Shown here: positions 1-6,169 of the stretch, in pieces
How the letters are laid out: every line of letters begins with the position of its first letter
Position numbering within the stretch: position 1 is the stretch's first letter
Program-made: the position numbers and the translations under genes
Assembly (NCBI GenBank): GCA_031256885.1
Contig: JAIRPS010000169.1
Coordinates: forward strand, 1 to 6,169
Source: Bifidobacteriaceae bacterium
Lineage (GTDB): Bacteria; Actinomycetota; Actinomycetes; Actinomycetales; WQXJ01
Reading direction: 5' to 3'
DNA length: 6,169 nt
The notes under the pieces: generated by a model
What the model was told of the DNA's origin: nothing
The model's database searches: none
The model's input: the letters and a program-made list of their open reading frames with translations, nothing else

Positions 1-278
1 CAACCGGTTTGGATGGCGCTGTTGCTTTGACCGACAACCAAACAGCTGACTTCGCTCGCATTTCTCCCGAAACTGCTGCCGAGCTTGGTTTATCTGAGGG
101 CCAAGCTGTGACAGTGGCGGCGCAGAGCGGTGCCATTACTTTGCCGCTACGTTTGACCGCAATGCCACCGCGGGTGGTTTGGTTACCAGTCAACTCAGTG
201 GCCAGTCGGGTTTTGCCAACACTTGGTGTGGCTGGCGGTATTGTCCAGGTCAGCGCGGCAAAGGAGGTTCCGGCGTGA
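1..278 (+). CDS. nuoG: NADH-quinone oxidoreductase subunit NuoG, C-terminal 91 residues (5' end outside window)
   Basis: The frame is open from the left edge (first full codon at base 3) to a TGA at 276-278, giving 91 residues. The segment looks like the C-terminal molybdopterin-dinucleotide-binding-type domain that ends molybdopterin-oxidoreductase-like NuoG proteins. Visible features are '[19 protein letters not shown]', then a glycine turn and a 'LPLRL' strand, and then 'VVWLPVNS' followed by a final beta strand. In complex I this fold is retained as structure, while the N-terminal part of NuoG, outside the window, carries the Fe-S clusters. NuoG belongs to the cytoplasmic peripheral arm that passes electrons from NADH towards NuoI. 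Its stop codon overlaps the GTG start of the next gene by 4 bases (GTGA), so the two are probably translationally coupled. Identity rests on this domain plus position directly before nuoH, the standard nuo order. A lone molybdopterin oxidoreductase tail would be the alternative, but context makes that unlikely. Confidence 0.88.
260..268 (+). promoter_or_regulatory. Strong ribosome binding site deciding the GTG start of nuoHI
   Basis: AAAGGAGGT at 260-268 is a near-perfect Shine-Dalgarno sequence, with 6-7 bases before the GTG at 275. It lies within the last codons of nuoG. It settles the NuoHI start at 275 rather than the upstream in-frame ATG at 179, which would lie deep inside nuoG. Confidence 0.85.
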
Positions 279-1471
279 TCACGGCAGGATTGTTGACTGT
301 TTCACAGGCAGCCGAAGGTCTAGCGACTAAGGCGGCGGCTGACCCAACAGCGGCTGATTTCAGCCAAGACGGAATCTGGGCAGTGATTATCAAAGCTGTC
401 GCTATTTTAGTGTTTGTGCTGGTGTCAGTGCTTTTTGCGCTGTGGTTTGAACGCCGTTTGGTGGGGCGGATGCAGCAACGTTTGGGGCCCAATGTGCGTG
501 GTCCCTTCGGATTGTTCCAGGCAATTTATGATGCTTTGAAGTTGCTGCTCAAGGAAGACTTGAGTGTTAAAAAAGCCGACAAAGTCTTATACATCATTGC
601 CCCGATGATCTCAGTGTTTGCTTCACTGCTGGTTTTTGCGGTGATCCCCATGGGCAGCCGGGTCGGTCTGCCTTGGACTGATTGGACAACCCCGCTGCAG
701 CTGACGGACTTCCCAGTGGCCGTACTGTATATATTGGCGGTAACGGCAATTGGTGTGTATGGGATTGTGTTGGGCGGCTGGTCTTCCGGGTCTACCTATT
801 CTTTGCTTGGTGCAATCCGCTCCACCGCACAAGTGGTGTCCTATGAGCTAACAATGGGACTGAGCCTGGTGGCAGTTTTCCTGGTTTCCGGCACCATGTC
901 AACATCAGAAATTGTTGCTGGGCAGCGCAATCTCTGGTACGCCGTGATGCTATTGCCGTCTTTCATCATCTACCTAATCGCCATGATTGGCGAAACCAAT
1001 CGTCTGCCCTTTGACCTACCCGAGGCAGAAGGCGAACTGGTTTCGGGTTACATGACCGAGTACTCGTCAATGAAATTTGCCTGGTTCTTCCTCGCCGAGT
1101 ACATCAATATGCTGAATGTGTCGGCAGTTGCCACCACGTTATTCCTTGGCGGTTGGCAATGCCCCTGGCCGCTTAGCGCAATCAACAATGGGATGCTCAA
1201 CACTGGTTGGTGGACTTTACTGTGGTTCCTCATCAAAGTTTGGCTGGTGATGTTCCTGTTTGTCTGGGTGCGCGGAACATTAGTGCGTTTCCGCTACGAC
1301 CAATTCATGCGCCTGGGTTGGAAAGTGCTGCTACCAGCGGCCTTAGCTTGGGTGACGCTACTTGGTGCAGTCAAAGCGGTTGATGCTTTCACTCCACTAA
1401 GTTTCAACAGTTTGGTTGTCCCCTTACTGTCTGGCTTTGTGGTGCTGTTTGTGATTTTGTGGTGCTGGCCG
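275..1471 (+). other. nuoH: NuoH part of the fusion: quinone-site membrane domain, nine predicted helices
   Basis: Residues 1-399. A polar N-terminal stretch of about 30 residues precedes helix 1 (from '[10 protein letters not shown]'). A basic loop follows with '[10 protein letters not shown]' and '[20 protein letters not shown]', the conserved first cytoplasmic loop that lines the quinone entry. The third cytoplasmic loop carries the GETNR and FDLPEAE signatures and then 'TEYSSMKFA'. Helix 7 is followed by '[14 protein letters not shown]', the standard end of the NuoH core. An extra ninth helix (about residues 380-398, '[19 protein letters not shown]') matches the longer C-terminus I recall for actinobacterial NuoH. 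With a periplasmic N-terminus, nine helices put the C-terminus in the cytoplasm. Confidence 0.88.
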
Positions 1472-2020
1472 CAGCGGTCCCCAGCGGTCAACCAAGATCA
1501 CAACCAGACAGCCAGCCAGGCAGCCGCCGGTGGTCTCGTTTGGGGGCGTCGCCCACCCGGCTGGCTGCGCTATGGCCTGTCACCATGGGCGGGGTTCGCG
1601 GTGACTTTTAAGACAATCTTCCGCAAAACTGTCACTGAACAGTATCCTTTTGAAAAAATCCCCCCCAAACCGCGTTACCACGGCAAACATCACCTGGGAC
1701 GGCATCCAGACGGTTTAGAAAAATGCGTTGGCTGCGAACTGTGCGCAATGGCCTGCCCGGCTGATGCCATCTATGTGGAGGCTGCGGCCAACACGCCAGA
1801 TTCACCTCATTCGCCGGGTGAGCGCTATGGCAAGATTTACCAAATTAACTATCTCCGCTGCGTTTTTTGCGGTCTGTGTATTGAAGCCTGCCCAACCGGC
1901 GCGCTGACCATGACAACAGACTTTGAGCTGGCTGGACCAAGCCGCCAGGGGCTGATCTTCGACAAAACACAGCTACTGACTCCCTCAGCCAAATCAGGCG
2001 AACAGGCAGGTGCGCAATGA
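275..2020 (+). CDS. nuoHI: Fused NADH-quinone oxidoreductase subunits NuoH and NuoI (one 581-residue protein)
   Basis: One uninterrupted frame encodes two complex I subunits that are normally separate. Residues 1 to about 399 are NuoH (ND1/Nqo8 family), the membrane subunit forming much of the quinone cavity. Nine hydrophobic helices can be counted, with E191 in 'SYELTMGLS' and the quinone-site loop '[17 protein letters not shown]' at 239-255. Residues about 400-434 are a polar linker rich in Q, N, A, P and R. Residues about 435-581 are NuoI (TYKY/Nqo9), with two 4Fe-4S motifs: C484, C487, C490, C494 and C529, C532, C535, C539. These ligate clusters N6a and N6b, which relay electrons to N2 in NuoB. 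The GTG start at 275 is supported by a strong ribosome binding site and the GTGA overlap with nuoG. The frame ends in an ATGA overlap with nuoJ. Codon use looks uniform throughout. The fusion is seen directly; whether the product stays uncut is unknown. Confidence 0.92.
1472..1576 (+). other. Inter-domain linker of the NuoH-NuoI fusion
   Basis: Residues about 400-434, between the last NuoH helix and the conserved NuoI N-terminal segment. Composition is polar and flexible, with several Q, N and S residues, an alanine/glycine run, and then a basic '[12 protein letters not shown]' patch. No stop codon and no in-frame ATG, GTG or TTG occurs here; the nearest flanking ones are the TTG at 1457 inside the last helix and the GTG at 1601 inside the NuoI domain. 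I see no Shine-Dalgarno-like purine run placed for a hidden start. The boundaries are estimates. Confidence 0.7.
1577..2017 (+). other. nuoI: NuoI part of the fusion: 2x[4Fe-4S] ferredoxin-like domain
   Basis: Residues about 435-581. It opens with '[20 protein letters not shown]', matching the membrane-surface N-terminal helix of actinobacterial NuoI. Next comes '[18 protein letters not shown]', then cluster motif 1 (CxxCxxCxxxC followed by P) at C484-C494, the insertion '[17 protein letters not shown]', and cluster motif 2 ([12 protein letters not shown]) at C529-C539. It closes with '[11 protein letters not shown]' and a short tail. All eight cysteine ligands and both following prolines are present, so both clusters should form. 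The tail is shorter than the extended one I recall in Mycobacterium. Confidence 0.92.
2008..2011 (+). promoter_or_regulatory. Weak ribosome binding site for nuoJ
   Basis: AGGT at 2008-2011 sits 5 bases before the ATG at 2017. It is weak compared with the sites upstream of nuoHI, nuoK and nuoM. Initiation probably relies on the ATGA overlap, with ribosomes terminating on nuoHI restarting here. It still favours 2017 over the in-frame ATG at 2050, which has no purine-rich run before it. Confidence 0.5.
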
Positions 2021-2889
2021 ATACACTCAGTGCCCTTGGCGGTGCCACAATGACCAGCGGTGAGCAGGTTTTGTTTGCGGTTGTTGCACCAATAATGCTG
2101 CTGTCAGCGGCCAGTTTGCTGTTTGTGCGGCGTGCTGTCCACGCGGCGGTGGCCATGTGTGTGGTGATGGTTGGTGCGGCTTTTCTCTACGTGGCGTCGG
2201 GGGCACCCTTCTTAGGTGCCGCTCAGGTGGTTGTCTACACCGGGGCAATCATGATGCTGTTTGTTTTTGTGGTCATGCTAGTAGGGGTGGATGTGACTGA
2301 ATCAACTCGTGAAATGTTGCGCGGACAACGCCTGTTTTCCATAATCGGCGGTCTGGGTTTAGCCGGTGTGTTGGGTGGCGCTGTGTTCAAAACCGCTTTA
2401 CCAACCAGTCAAGGGATCAGTGACCCCGGAAGCGACGGCAATCCAGGTCAAGTAGCTAAAGTGTTATTTACAGATTTTCCTTTCACCTTAGAAATTACTG
2501 GCGCACTGTTGATTGTCGCAGCACTGAGTGCTGTTATGCTGACGCACCGCTCGACTGTGCGTGCCGCCTCAGCACAACTAGCTAAAACAACTACTGTGCC
2601 GGCTGCGCCACTCCCTGCACCAGGTGTTTATGCAGGTAGACGCGCTGTTGATGTGCCGGCGATTGACCAAAATGGTCAAGCTGTAACCGCCTCAGTGCCA
2701 CAACCTCTGGTTGAACGCGGCCAAATACGCCCCCGACAACCCTTCACCCAAGCCGATCCGAAGACATTAGCGACTTGGCCGGCTCGTCAAGCACCAACCC
2801 CGCCCGCAGTAGACCAAAGCACTGATTCAACAAGCTCTACACCACTAACTTCGCCAGACGAGACCGCCAGAACTGGAGGTGAGCAATGA
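2017..2889 (+). CDS. nuoJ: NADH-quinone oxidoreductase subunit NuoJ with long C-terminal tail
   Basis: A 290-residue membrane subunit of complex I (ND6/Nqo10 family), placed between NuoH and NuoK in the membrane arm and linked to the conformational coupling of quinone reduction to proton pumping. Five hydrophobic helices lie within about residues 16-175. The signature third helix, '[20 protein letters not shown]', contains Y74; this is the segment that forms a pi-bulge in known structures. It is followed by 'GVDVTES' and 'LRGQR', and E159 opens the last helix region. After H177-R178 comes a hydrophilic tail of about 113 residues, rich in P, A, T and Q, which includes 'PGVYA' (202-206) and 'AVDVPA'. 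A related tail is recalled in Mycobacterium NuoJ; E. coli NuoJ, at roughly 184 residues, lacks it. The start at 2017 overlaps the nuoHI stop (ATGA). A second in-frame ATG at 2050 would give 279 residues and cannot be fully excluded. Confidence 0.9.
2875..2880 (+). promoter_or_regulatory. Strong ribosome binding site for nuoK
   Basis: GGAGGT at 2875-2880 lies inside the last codons of nuoJ, 5 bases before the ATG at 2886. It fixes the nuoK start at the ATGA overlap with the nuoJ stop. Confidence 0.82.
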
Positions 2890-3179
2890 CCCTCTACCTC
2901 TTGTTAGCCATCGCACTGTTCGCCATCGGCGCTACCACTGTGCTGGTGCGGCGCAATGTCATCATCATGTTCATGGGAATTGAGCTAATGCTCAACGCGG
3001 CCAACCTTGCCTTGGTCACTTTTGCCCGTTGGCATGACGACGTGGCTGGTCAAGCCATGGCTCTGCTGATCATGGTGGTCGCGGCTGGTGAAGTGGTGGT
3101 TGGTTTAGCAGTGATTGTGGCCTTGTTCCGTGCGCGGCGCTCGGTCAATGTTGACGACCTGAAAGTCCCGAGGCATTGA
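2886..3179 (+). CDS. nuoK: NADH-quinone oxidoreductase subunit NuoK
   Basis: A 97-residue, three-helix membrane subunit (ND4L/Nqo11 family), close to the usual length of about 100. It sits between NuoJ and the antiporter-like subunits and provides buried carboxylates on the proton path. Helices are at about residues 2-20, 25-47 and 56-80. The signature '[17 protein letters not shown]' carries E33, and '[15 protein letters not shown]' carries E69. Their 36-residue spacing matches E36 and E72 of the E. coli protein, which are needed for activity. The C-terminus '[10 protein letters not shown]' resembles the actinobacterial form. The ATG overlaps the nuoJ stop by 4 bases and has a strong ribosome binding site. 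The stop is 1 base before nuoL. Nothing looks broken or unusual. Confidence 0.96.
3170..3173 (+). promoter_or_regulatory. Moderate ribosome binding site for nuoL
   Basis: GAGG at 3170-3173 lies within the last codons of nuoK, 7 bases before the ATG at 3181. It is shorter than the nuoHI and nuoM sites, so coupling to nuoK termination, one base upstream of the start, probably helps. Confidence 0.55.
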
Positions 3180-3180
3180 T

Positions 3181-5115
3181 ATGACTGAGACAATTTTGCT
3201 AACCGCCAATCCAGCTACTCCACCGCTAGCCGATGGGGCTTTAGGACTGATTTGGCTGGTGATTGCCATTCCCTTAGTTTCAGCCGCTTTGCTGCTGCTC
3301 CTGGGACGCCGTGCCAACCGTTGGGGCCACTGGCTTGGTCTAGCCGCCGCCGTTGGTGGATTAGCCGTCTGCTTACCAGCTTTAGCGCAACTATTGGCCA
3401 GGCCCAGTGGTGAACGCCTTGTTAACCTGCACCTATTTGACTGGTTCAGCGGAACCGCACTCTCAGTACCCGCTGGACTTCGAGTTGATCCGCTATCCAT
3501 AACCTTTGTTGCTCTGGTGACCTTTGTCGGCACACTGATCCACCTATATTCAGTTGCCTACATGGCTAATGATCCTGATAGGCGACGATTTTTTGCCTAC
3601 CTAAACTTGTTTGTGGCTGCCATGCTTCTGCTGGTCTTGGCGGATTCATTCTTGCTGTTGTTTGTTGGCTGGGAGGGTGTAGGCCTGGCATCCTACCTGC
3701 TGATTGGTTTTTGGAATCAGCGAACTGCGGCAGCCGTGGCTGCTAAAAAAGCTTTCATCGCTAATCGCATTGGCGACCTTGGCCTGATTTTCGCAATGGC
3801 CCTGATGATCAGCCATGTTGGTTCGGTCAGCTTTAGCGATGTGTTAACCAGTTCAGCAAACCTTTCAAGCGGCGCAACCCTGGCAATCTGCCTGCTGCTC
3901 TTGTTGGCAGCTTGCGGCAAATCAGCCCAATTCCCGTTGCAATCATGGCTCGGTGACGCAATGGCTGGTCCCACCCCTGTCTCCGCCTTGATTCACGCCG
4001 CCACCATGGTGACAGCTGGCGTTTATTTGGTAGTGCGAGCCGGCCCGCTCTTTGCGGCAGTTGAAGGTGCCCGCCTTGCGGTTTGCCTGGTTGGGGCAAT
4101 CACCTTGCTCTATGGTGCGATTGTTGGCTGCGCCAAAGATGACATCAAAAAAGTATTGGCCGCATCAACCATGTCGCAAATCGGCTACATGATGTTGGCT
4201 GCCGGATTAGGGCCGGTCGGGGCAGTTTTTGCCATACTCCACTTGGTGACTCACGGTTTCTTCAAAGCTGGCATGTTCCTCGGGGCTGGCTCTGTGATGC
4301 ACGCAATGGGTGACCGGGTTGACGCACGCCGCTTCGGTGGCCTAGCCAGTGTTATGCGGCTGACCTGGTTGACCTTCATGATGGGCTGGTTGGCAATTCT
4401 GGGCGTGCCACCGTTTTCCGGTTTCTGGTCAAAAGACCGCATTATTGAGGCAGCATTCACAGGCGTTGGTTGGCAAGCCTATGTCTTTGGTTCGGTGGCG
4501 CTTCTGGGCGCTGGATTGACTGCTTTCTACATGTCACGCCTCTTCTTGATGATTTTCCACGGTAAGGCACGCTGGCCTGCTGACACACATCCGCATGAAC
4601 CCTCTTGGCTGATGACCGCACCAATGGTGATTCTGGCCATCGGTTCGGTTGGCCTGGGCTGGTTGCTCACTGTTATTGGTTTTAGCAACTGGTTGACTCC
4701 GGTGACTGGCACTGCGTCCGAGTCTCAGCCGGTGTTACCTCCGGCATTAATTACAGTGGCAGCTTTAGCGCTGGTGGTGATCGGCTGCGGTATTGCCTAT
4801 TGGCGTTATGGTCGCCAAGCCGTGCCCCAGTTACCGCCTCCGGGCAATCGTTTTACCCGGGCTGCTCGGCGCGACCTTTACCAGGATGACCTCAACCATT
4901 ATCTGCTAGTTAAACCAGGCAATGCCCTTGTCAAAGGCACAGCTGCGACTGACCGTTGGCTGGTTGATGGGGCTGTCAACGGTTTGGGCTGGCTCACAGT
5001 GGCCTGTGGAAGGGTGCTTGGGCTAGCTCAAGGTGCTCAAACTCGGCGCGCTGCAGCCATTTTGGCCTTGGGCGTCGTGGTTCTTGGAGTAATCGTTTTG
5101 GCGGGGAGGTTCTAA
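3181..5115 (+). CDS. nuoL: NADH-quinone oxidoreductase subunit NuoL (distal antiporter-like proton pump)
   Basis: A 644-residue polytopic membrane protein (ND5/Nqo12 family), slightly longer than the E. coli subunit of about 613. It is the terminal proton-translocating subunit of the membrane arm. The charged network is complete: E165 in 'VGWEGVGLASYLLIGFW', D199 in 'NRIGDLG', K247 in 'ACGKSAQFPLQSWLGDAM', H272 in 'PVSALIHAATMVTAGVYL', H354 and H358 in 'HLVTHGFFKAGMF' with K362, and K418 in 'FSGFWSKDRI'. By offset these correspond to E. coli E144, D178, K229, H254, H334, H338, K342 and K399. The C-terminal part, from about residue 560, should hold the long lateral helix and final anchor. It includes 'LYQDDLNHYLLVKPGN' and 'DRWLVDGAVNGLGWL', and ends in a hydrophobic stretch before 'AGRF'. 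The start at 3181 follows the nuoK stop by 1 base. The family is shared with Mrp antiporters, but context and length make this NuoL. Confidence 0.96.
   Translation: MTETILLTANPATPPLADGALGLIWLVIAIPLVSAALLLLLGRRANRWGHWLGLAAAVGGLAVCLPALAQLLARPSGERLVNLHLFDWFSGTALSVPAGLRVDPLSITFVALVTFVGTLIHLYSVAYMANDPDRRRFFAYLNLFVAAMLLLVLADSFLLLFVGWEGVGLASYLLIGFWNQRTAAAVAAKKAFIANRIGDLGLIFAMALMISHVGSVSFSDVLTSSANLSSGATLAICLLLLLAACGKSAQFPLQSWLGDAMAGPTPVSALIHAATMVTAGVYLVVRAGPLFAAVEGARLAVCLVGAITLLYGAIVGCAKDDIKKVLAASTMSQIGYMMLAAGLGPVGAVFAILHLVTHGFFKAGMFLGAGSVMHAMGDRVDARRFGGLASVMRLTWLTFMMGWLAILGVPPFSGFWSKDRIIEAAFTGVGWQAYVFGSVALLGAGLTAFYMSRLFLMIFHGKARWPADTHPHEPSWLMTAPMVILAIGSVGLGWLLTVIGFSNWLTPVTGTASESQPVLPPALITVAALALVVIGCGIAYWRYGRQAVPQLPPPGNRFTRAARRDLYQDDLNHYLLVKPGNALVKGTAATDRWLVDGAVNGLGWLTVACGRVLGLAQGAQTRRAAAILALGVVVLGVIVLAGRF
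5103..5110 (+). promoter_or_regulatory. Strong ribosome binding site for nuoM
   Basis: GGGGAGGT at 5103-5110 overlaps the final codons of nuoL, 7 bases before the ATG at 5118. It supports that start even though the gene is cut off by the window end. Confidence 0.82.
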
Positions 5116-5117
5116 CA

Positions 5118-6169
5118 ATGCAGTCGATTCCTTGGCTGACCATTTTGGTTGTTTGGCCGTTAGCCGGTGCACTGCTCATTGGTCTGGTGCCGCCTATCCG
5201 ACTTCATGGGCGCGCGCTCGCAATGATTTGGTCGCTGATCGAGTTGGTTGTCACAGTGCTCACTGTGATTGCTTGGACACAAGGCAGCGGACCAGTGCGG
5301 CTGGAGATTCTGGCCTCGTGGATCAGCCAACTTGGCATCTCCTATGCACTGGGTTTAACCGCCCTCGGTTTGCTGATGATTGTGCTGGGAGCAGCCTTGG
5401 TGCCGCTAGTGCTAGCGGCTGCTTGGCGTGATGACAAAACACCACAACGCGGCGGTAGTCATGCCGCCTGGTTGCTGGCGCTGGAAGCCAGTTTGATGGC
5501 TGTTTTTACAGCTCGCGACATTGTTTTGTTCTACGTTGTGTTTGAAGCGATGCTGATTCCGGTGTATTTCTTGATTGGCTCGTTTGGCGGCTTGCAACGT
5601 CGCCGTGCCTCACTGAAATTCTTAATCTACTCGCTGGCGGGCGGTTTAGTGATGCTGGCGGGGGTCATCGCTTACGGCGTTTATGCTGGTGGTGATGCTC
5701 AAGCCTTTTATCTAGATGGACTGACTGAACCAGTCTTGTCGCAGTCAGCTGAGCGTTTGATTTTCCTTTCGTTCTTTGTTGCCTTCGCCGTCAAAGCGCC
5801 GCTTTGGCCGGTTCATACTTGGTTGCCCGATGCCGCTCAGGCGGCTCGTCCCGGAACCTCAGCATTACTTGTTGGTGTACTCGACAAGGTTGGCACATTT
5901 GGCATGATCACCTTGTGCTTGCCACTATTTCCCAATGCTGTGCGTTGGGCGGCGCCCGTGATCATTGTGCTGGCAGTGGTTTCAGTGGTCTGGGGGGCCG
6001 TGTTAGCGCTGGTGCAAAAGGACATCCTGCGATTGATCGCCTATACCTCTATATCTCACTTTGGTTTCATTGTTCTGGGTATTTTTGTTTTCGACTGGCA
6101 GGCTTTATCTGGCGCATCCTTCTACATGTTGGCGCATGGCTTAGCCACTGCTGGGCTGTTCCTGCTGTC
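5118..6169 (+). CDS. nuoM: NADH-quinone oxidoreductase subunit NuoM, N-terminal 350 residues (3' end outside window)
   Basis: The frame opens at ATG 5118, two bases after the nuoL TAA, and stays open to the right edge, giving 350 residues plus 2 bases. Family members are usually about 500 residues. This is the middle antiporter-like proton pump of complex I (ND4/Nqo13 family). Visible key residues are E143 in 'FYVVFEAMLIPVYFLIGSFG', K226 in 'FAVKAPLWPVHTWLPDAA', K257 in 'LLVGVLDKVGTFGM', H314 in 'TSISHFGFIVLG' and H340 in 'YMLAHGLATAGLFLL'. By offset these match E. coli E144, K234, K265, H322 and H348. The wording 'PGTSALLVGVLDK' is the actinobacterial version of the motif. The N-terminal region begins 'MQSIPWLTILVVWPLAGALL', a typical first helix. 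No break or frameshift is seen. The remaining C-terminal helices and nuoN would follow to the right. Confidence 0.94.
   Translation, partial: MQSIPWLTILVVWPLAGALLIGLVPPIRLHGRALAMIWSLIELVVTVLTVIAWTQGSGPVRLEILASWISQLGISYALGLTALGLLMIVLGAALVPLVLAAAWRDDKTPQRGGSHAAWLLALEASLMAVFTARDIVLFYVVFEAMLIPVYFLIGSFGGLQRRRASLKFLIYSLAGGLVMLAGVIAYGVYAGGDAQAFYLDGLTEPVLSQSAERLIFLSFFVAFAVKAPLWPVHTWLPDAAQAARPGTSALLVGVLDKVGTFGMITLCLPLFPNAVRWAAPVIIVLAVVSVVWGAVLALVQKDILRLIAYTSISHFGFIVLGIFVFDWQALSGASFYMLAHGLATAGLFLL
5402..5419 (+). repeat. Perfect 8-bp inverted repeat inside nuoM
   Basis: GCCGCTAG at 5402-5409 and CTAGCGGC at 5412-5419 are exact reverse complements separated by TG. As RNA this allows a 7-bp stem with a 4-base loop. 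It lies in coding sequence for 'VPLVLAAA', has no following T-run, and so is not a credible terminator. It may be chance in an alanine/leucine/valine-rich stretch. Confidence 0.5.

Follow-up and report, generated by a model that had tools for sequence, protein, structure and literature searches.

A single stop-free reading frame encodes a full NuoH joined to a full NuoI in the bacterial DNA analysed here, a stretch of 6,169 nucleotides that we call the window. The fusion is genuine, inherited within a small group of uncultured actinobacteria, and uncommon. Judged from sequence, the gene very probably belongs to a proton-pumping complex I (NADH:quinone oxidoreductase) of the ordinary type, with NuoH and NuoI built in as one tethered 64-kDa subunit.

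The genes of the window follow one another on one strand, in the order end of nuoG, nuoHI, nuoJ, nuoK, nuoL and start of nuoM (Table 1). The stop of nuoG and the start of nuoHI share four nucleotides (GTGA), as do the stop of nuoHI and the start of nuoJ (ATGA). The first-pass annotation had placed the fused frame at 275..2020, which is exact for an open frame of 581 codons. It had also put the product at about 63 kDa (the computed mass is 63.9 kDa) and had described a complete NuoH running into a complete NuoI with all eight cluster cysteines. Here, the profiles for both subunits score above their curated cut-offs. Residues 24-416 match NuoH (NF004743, 595.8 bits against a cut-off of 494; also the PF00146 family, NuoH/ND1), and this half of the protein has the NuoH fold. 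The NuoI module exceeds the cut-off of 163 set for NF004537 and carries its eight cluster cysteines in two CxxCxxCxxxCP motifs. The first of these motifs begins CELCAMACP in the window; the consensus of relatives is CELCAWACP, and the fused relative L001 has CELCAWVCP.

Table 1. Features of the window, with their positions in nucleotides and the evidence for each.
Feature	Position	Strand	Evidence
nuoG, 3' end	3..278	+	NF005895, 64.4 bits, profile 719-804 of 811
nuoHI, single stop-free frame, GTG start, 581 aa, 63.9 kDa	275..2020	+	
NuoH module, residues 26-400, nine predicted transmembrane helices	350..1474	+	
Ninth NuoH transmembrane helix, residues 377-397	1403..1465	+	models, hydropathy, chain alignments
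Linker, residues 398-435	1466..1579	+	
NuoI module, residues 436-574	1580..1996	+	NF004537, 230.9 bits; TIGR01971, 137.3 bits
First 4Fe-4S motif, residues 484-495	1724..1759	+	
Second 4Fe-4S motif, residues 529-540	1859..1894	+	
nuoJ	2017..2889	+	NF005165, 244.4 bits
nuoK	2886..3179	+	NF004320, 115.5 bits
nuoL	3181..5115	+	NF005141, 707.5 bits
nuoM, truncated by window end	5118..6167	+	TIGR01972, 350.4 bits

A scan of genomes, taken one per species, found 244 relatives, from which the best 80 loci were kept. Both the NuoH and the NuoI parts are present in 79 of these 80, and they are fused in one of the 79. This locus, L001, lies in a MAG titled Micrococcales bacterium Emb289P3bin96, and its fusion is 74% identical to that of the window. 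A protein database search was then made with the NuoI part, its candidates being limited in length to exclude plain NuoI of normal size. Here, the best match after the window's own protein was P0002. It comes from a different contig than L001, and the two proteins are identical at all but 1 of 580 residues. Because the fusion is repeated in L001 and P0002, an indel accident is excluded for practical purposes. The first-pass annotation had proposed to look for an indel or stop in independent assemblies and to compare the closest relatives. The locus L001 and the protein P0002 are fused and have no stop; of the closest relatives, L001 is fused and ten loci, L002-L011, have separate genes.

Between the window and L001, 77% of the amino acids are identical in the NuoH half and 77% in the NuoI half, against only 42% and 40%, respectively, of the third codon positions. 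Thus, selection has maintained both halves from the time the two lineages split.

The sister loci L002-L011 show how the boundary looks when the genes are separate: in 10 of 10, nuoH and nuoI overlap by four nucleotides, GTGA or ATGA. In the window and L001, this stop/start boundary has disappeared, and with it the NuoH tail past the ninth helix and a few codons at the start of nuoI. Where relatives have the G[FY]PVPP-bearing end of NuoH and the beginning of NuoI, a hydrophilic linker of about 38 residues stands instead, after which both proteins keep a vestige of the native NuoI N-terminus. Over 39 aligned positions, the two linkers are 38% identical.

The rest of the complex is best seen in the L001 genome (L001/L121), where a canonical 14-subunit complex I is encoded in one operon: nuoABC, nuoDEFG, nuoHI and nuoJKLMN, with nuoN running to the end of the fetched stretch. 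Apart from the fusion, this genome matches the query only weakly, at 29% identity across its residues 467-547. With a complete nuo set and no better second match, the fusion is therefore the only recognisable NuoI of L001's complex I.

Some features of the surrounding records deserve mention. The G+C content of the window (1-6169) is 54.7%, below that of the L001-L011 loci (58.9-69.4%). The ten MAGs behind L002-L011 are titled Bifidobacteriaceae and encode NuoH and NuoI. Their isolate names presumably point to termite guts. One similar name occurs in the accessible part of PMC11707648, where Bifidobacteriaceae are said to lack respiratory metabolism, and the record titles probably misplace these MAGs. 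Similarly, the locus L068, in a MAG titled Proteobacteria, holds an actinobacterial nuoH-nuoI nearly identical to that of L080, from a MAG titled Actinomycetes of the same BP9 set; L068 is probably mis-binned or mislabelled.

How uncommon the fusion is can be read from surveys at three taxonomic ranks. Within the family of the L001 genome, a match spanning both parts was found in 1 of 18 genomes, one of which, G016, contributes only an end piece of NuoI. Within the order, 223 of 396 sampled genomes match, and among the matches listed only that in L001's genome spans both parts. Four order loci whose matches run past residue 440 (L111-L114, in G169, G276, G325 and G172) were considered as further fusions and rejected; together with L115 (G040), an ordinary match, 5 of 5 have separate genes. 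Within the class, 360 of 394 sampled genomes match at E up to 1e-50. Among the matches listed there, four are stop-free fusions (L001's genome, G425, G497 and G722), all scoring far above the lowest match listed. The last three are close to proteins that bear a Nocardia name: among the fetched proteins, their best matches are P0111 (97% identity, G425), P0120 (84%, G497) and P0063 (81%, G722). A fifth spanning match, in G538, has a stop between the parts. Here (locus L118), nuoH and nuoI lie in the same frame with a stop and a short gap between them; L118 is a relative of the Nocardia fusions and is one step short of fusion. As fusions, G538/L118 and G560/L120 were rejected, their genes being separate. 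The long class matches G699, G524, G644, G658 and G592, ending at 434-449, were left out of this inspection.

The protein search found 373 proteins, the best 120 of which were examined. By BLAST, 47 of the 120 cover more than 300 of the 375 NuoH positions and more than 110 of the 139 NuoI positions. A Nocardia name is borne by 23 of the 47, five of these being UniRef "Multifunctional fusion..." entries. Thus, the view that the fusion in the window is unique is rejected: Nocardia species carry NuoH-NuoI fusions (for example P0044, P0051, P0057 and P0094, some of them named "Multifunctional fusion protein" in UniRef). At NCBI, the listed Nocardia fusions go by the name NuoH or subunit H; nuoI may thus seem to be absent from such annotations, and caution is needed.

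The first-pass annotation knew of no description of such a fusion. For papers this seems to hold: no title or abstract opening among the matches listed names a NuoH-NuoI fusion, in a literature search without subscription papers that leaves absence unproven, and the accessible part of a 2025 survey of complex I mentions CD and BCD fusions only (PMC12361115). For databases it does not, since the Nocardia architecture is already there under its UniRef name.

Three further proteins call for comment. A query with residues 380-470 gave 2 matches among 102 candidates, the window's own protein and P0121, in a search that did not list P0002 and is thus not sensitive; P0121 was set aside, as it looks garbled by a frameshift when inspected by eye. 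P0062 is doubtful as a true fusion and may have been produced by a frameshift: in L120, related to it at 76% identity, the genes are separate and in another frame. P0075 (560 aa), possibly a further tail-less fusion, lacks the NuoH tail motif and has a very short linker; it is found only on a 1959-nt contig.

Trees were built on the NuoH and NuoI parts, with the linker left out. The window, L001 and P0002 form one group in a tree of 44 rows (97/89*) and again in a tree of 38 rows chosen differently (93/84, unstarred). Their sister group is the ten loci L002-L011, all with separate genes. The changes between fused and separate, counts of which cannot distinguish gain from loss, number two in the 44-row tree and three in the 38-row tree, which holds more relatives with separate genes. 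These three fall in the window lineage, in Nocardia and in P0075/P0062, and the count stays at three without P0062. The trees give the fusion no shared ancestry with the Nocardia type: rows with separate genes stand between the fused groups.

Whether NuoI can be fused to the end of NuoH should depend on the side of the membrane on which this end lies, a point that the first-pass annotation did not raise. NuoH has eight or nine helices, according to a table in the accessible part of PMC10212512. For the human enzyme, the accessible part of PMC9696053 assigns Y277 of TM7 to the matrix side, where it touches NuoI near the NuoI N-terminus; L285, in the final helix TM8, lies close to that side too. 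From these positions we infer that an eight-helix NuoH ends outside. The ninth helix of actinobacterial NuoH should return the C-terminus to the cytoplasm, and this should make fusion possible. In the window's protein, two AlphaFold2 runs model this helix at 377-396 or 377-397 (block pLDDT 75-85), and the 19-residue hydropathy peak, at 379-397, is 2.53. The chains listed by fold mostly cover model residues 30-378; among the 50 listed, only 8e9g_H and 4hea_H align past residue 378, and none is a NuoI chain. The NuoI half of the fused chain was modelled with low confidence in both runs (block pLDDT 30-66).

The NuoH tail that the fusion lacks, likewise not mentioned in the first-pass annotation, is widely conserved. 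The motif G[FY]P[VA]PP is present in the NuoH tail of 77 of the 79 loci, the exceptions being the fused L001 and L032. In L032, an ambiguous base shifts the frame of nuoH, and the DNA still encodes PVPP in another frame. At the junctions of the window and L001 the motif is absent from all frames, and it is absent from P0002 too. Among the separate loci from the order and class surveys, the motif stands in L111-L114 and in L120, L115 reads HPVPP, and L118 lacks the motif. Thus, the tail can be lost without fusion, and the two changes do not always go together. Of the 47 proteins with both parts, 29 match the strict tail pattern, and DFPVPP was seen by eye in 7 more.

The fusion may then have arisen as follows. 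A deletion or rearrangement over the 4-nt overlap would have created the fused frame. This would have been tolerated, the ninth helix having already brought the end of NuoH to the side of the membrane at which NuoI docks. Free drift of the linker would have followed, with electron transfer and pumping presumably unchanged, and the tether would at most aid assembly or replace the lost tail.

A different expectation is that the fusion is adaptive, the tether speeding assembly or holding the peripheral arm after loss of the NuoH tail. We see this as possible, although we lean against it. Fused rows do occur in the window lineage and in Nocardia, as well as, probably, in P0075, which makes three changes on the tree. 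But such counts are blind to gain and loss, and stop-free fusions are few: among the matches listed for the 394 class genomes there are only four, three of them Nocardia-like. The fusion has persisted since the window and L001 parted and, here, accompanies the absence of a widely conserved tail. Yet Nocardia mostly kept the tail and L118, without it, is unfused, which means that the two changes are not bound together, and neutral fixation accounts for the same facts.

A more specific suggestion, which we find rather unlikely, concerns the tail itself. The G[FY]PVPP tail of nine-helix actinobacterial NuoH might be a strap tying the peripheral arm to the membrane arm, a role that the covalent NuoH-NuoI tether took over here. 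The tail of Mycobacterium smegmatis NuoH reads GAYPVPPLP; as this chain (8e9g_H) aligns to residue 395 of a 408-residue sequence, the mycobacterial tail seems to be ordered. L118, which has neither motif nor fusion, weakens the suggestion. Were it true, a docking strap would have been swapped naturally for a covalent hinge at the junction where electron transfer is coupled to protons.

It is also conceivable that the fused gene yields other products, because the chain is cut once made or because translation starts at a rare codon. That the frame is fused while two proteins are nevertheless made, by internal initiation or by proteolysis of the linker, we hold to be improbable. A hydrophilic, poorly conserved linker would suit proteolysis, and in L001 a GTG stands in frame 69 nt ahead of the NuoI match, from which a free NuoI is conceivable. 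In the window, however, there is no in-frame ATG, GTG or TTG between 1457 and 1601, making a free NuoI unlikely. Translation from the GTG at 1601 would begin within the region of the N-terminal NuoI helix, and no clear AGGAGG-like site lies upstream of this codon.

Finally, the idea that an assembly or sequencing indel deleted the stop can be set aside as extremely improbable: such artefacts are present in the database (by eye, P0030, P0068, P0078, P0110, P0112 and P0117 among the 47, plus P0121, look garbled or unreadable around the junction), but here the fusion is shared by two lineages, about 74% identical, that form one group, P0002 from another contig agrees with L001, and a simple frameshift would have left the NuoH tail motif in some frame of the window or L001 junction, where it is absent.

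A genuine tethered subunit has consequences, although not all of those expected by the first-pass annotation. Complex I already contains NuoH and NuoI in a 1:1 ratio, and the stoichiometry said to be forced by the fusion is forced only at synthesis, from one frame. Nor is it supported, as worded, that the tether fixes the N6a/N6b relay by the quinone cavity. With a linker this long and divergent, and with NuoI touching NuoH unfused in the human enzyme (accessible part of PMC9696053), the tether need not set the geometry. What a fusion across the arm junction does is limit how far the two arms can separate, and reveal the side of the membrane at which NuoH must end. It also predicts that NuoH-NuoI fusions will be confined to lineages whose NuoH has a ninth helix. 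The absence of the tail in the same lineage makes the NuoH tail itself worth study.

Among known systems, the separate state is represented by the complex I of Mycobacterium smegmatis (8e9g, chains H and I) and by Thermus thermophilus Nqo8 (4hea_H); unlike in the window, NuoH and NuoI or their homologues are separate chains in both. The Nocardia fusions resemble the window's in having NuoH followed by NuoI, a hydrophobic ninth segment and a length of about 590-640 aa. Unlike it, they form a separate group in the tree and mostly keep the NuoH tail motif ahead of NuoI, which the window, L001 and P0002 lack. By its sequence, the window-type fusion is a variant of complex I subunit fusion that stands apart from the Nocardia fusion on the tree. 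The NuoCD and NuoBCD fusions described in the accessible part of PMC12361115 likewise join neighbouring complex I subunits in frame. Those fusions, however, join subunits within the peripheral arm, whereas nuoHI bridges the two arms at their junction, linking a membrane subunit to an iron-sulfur subunit of the peripheral arm.
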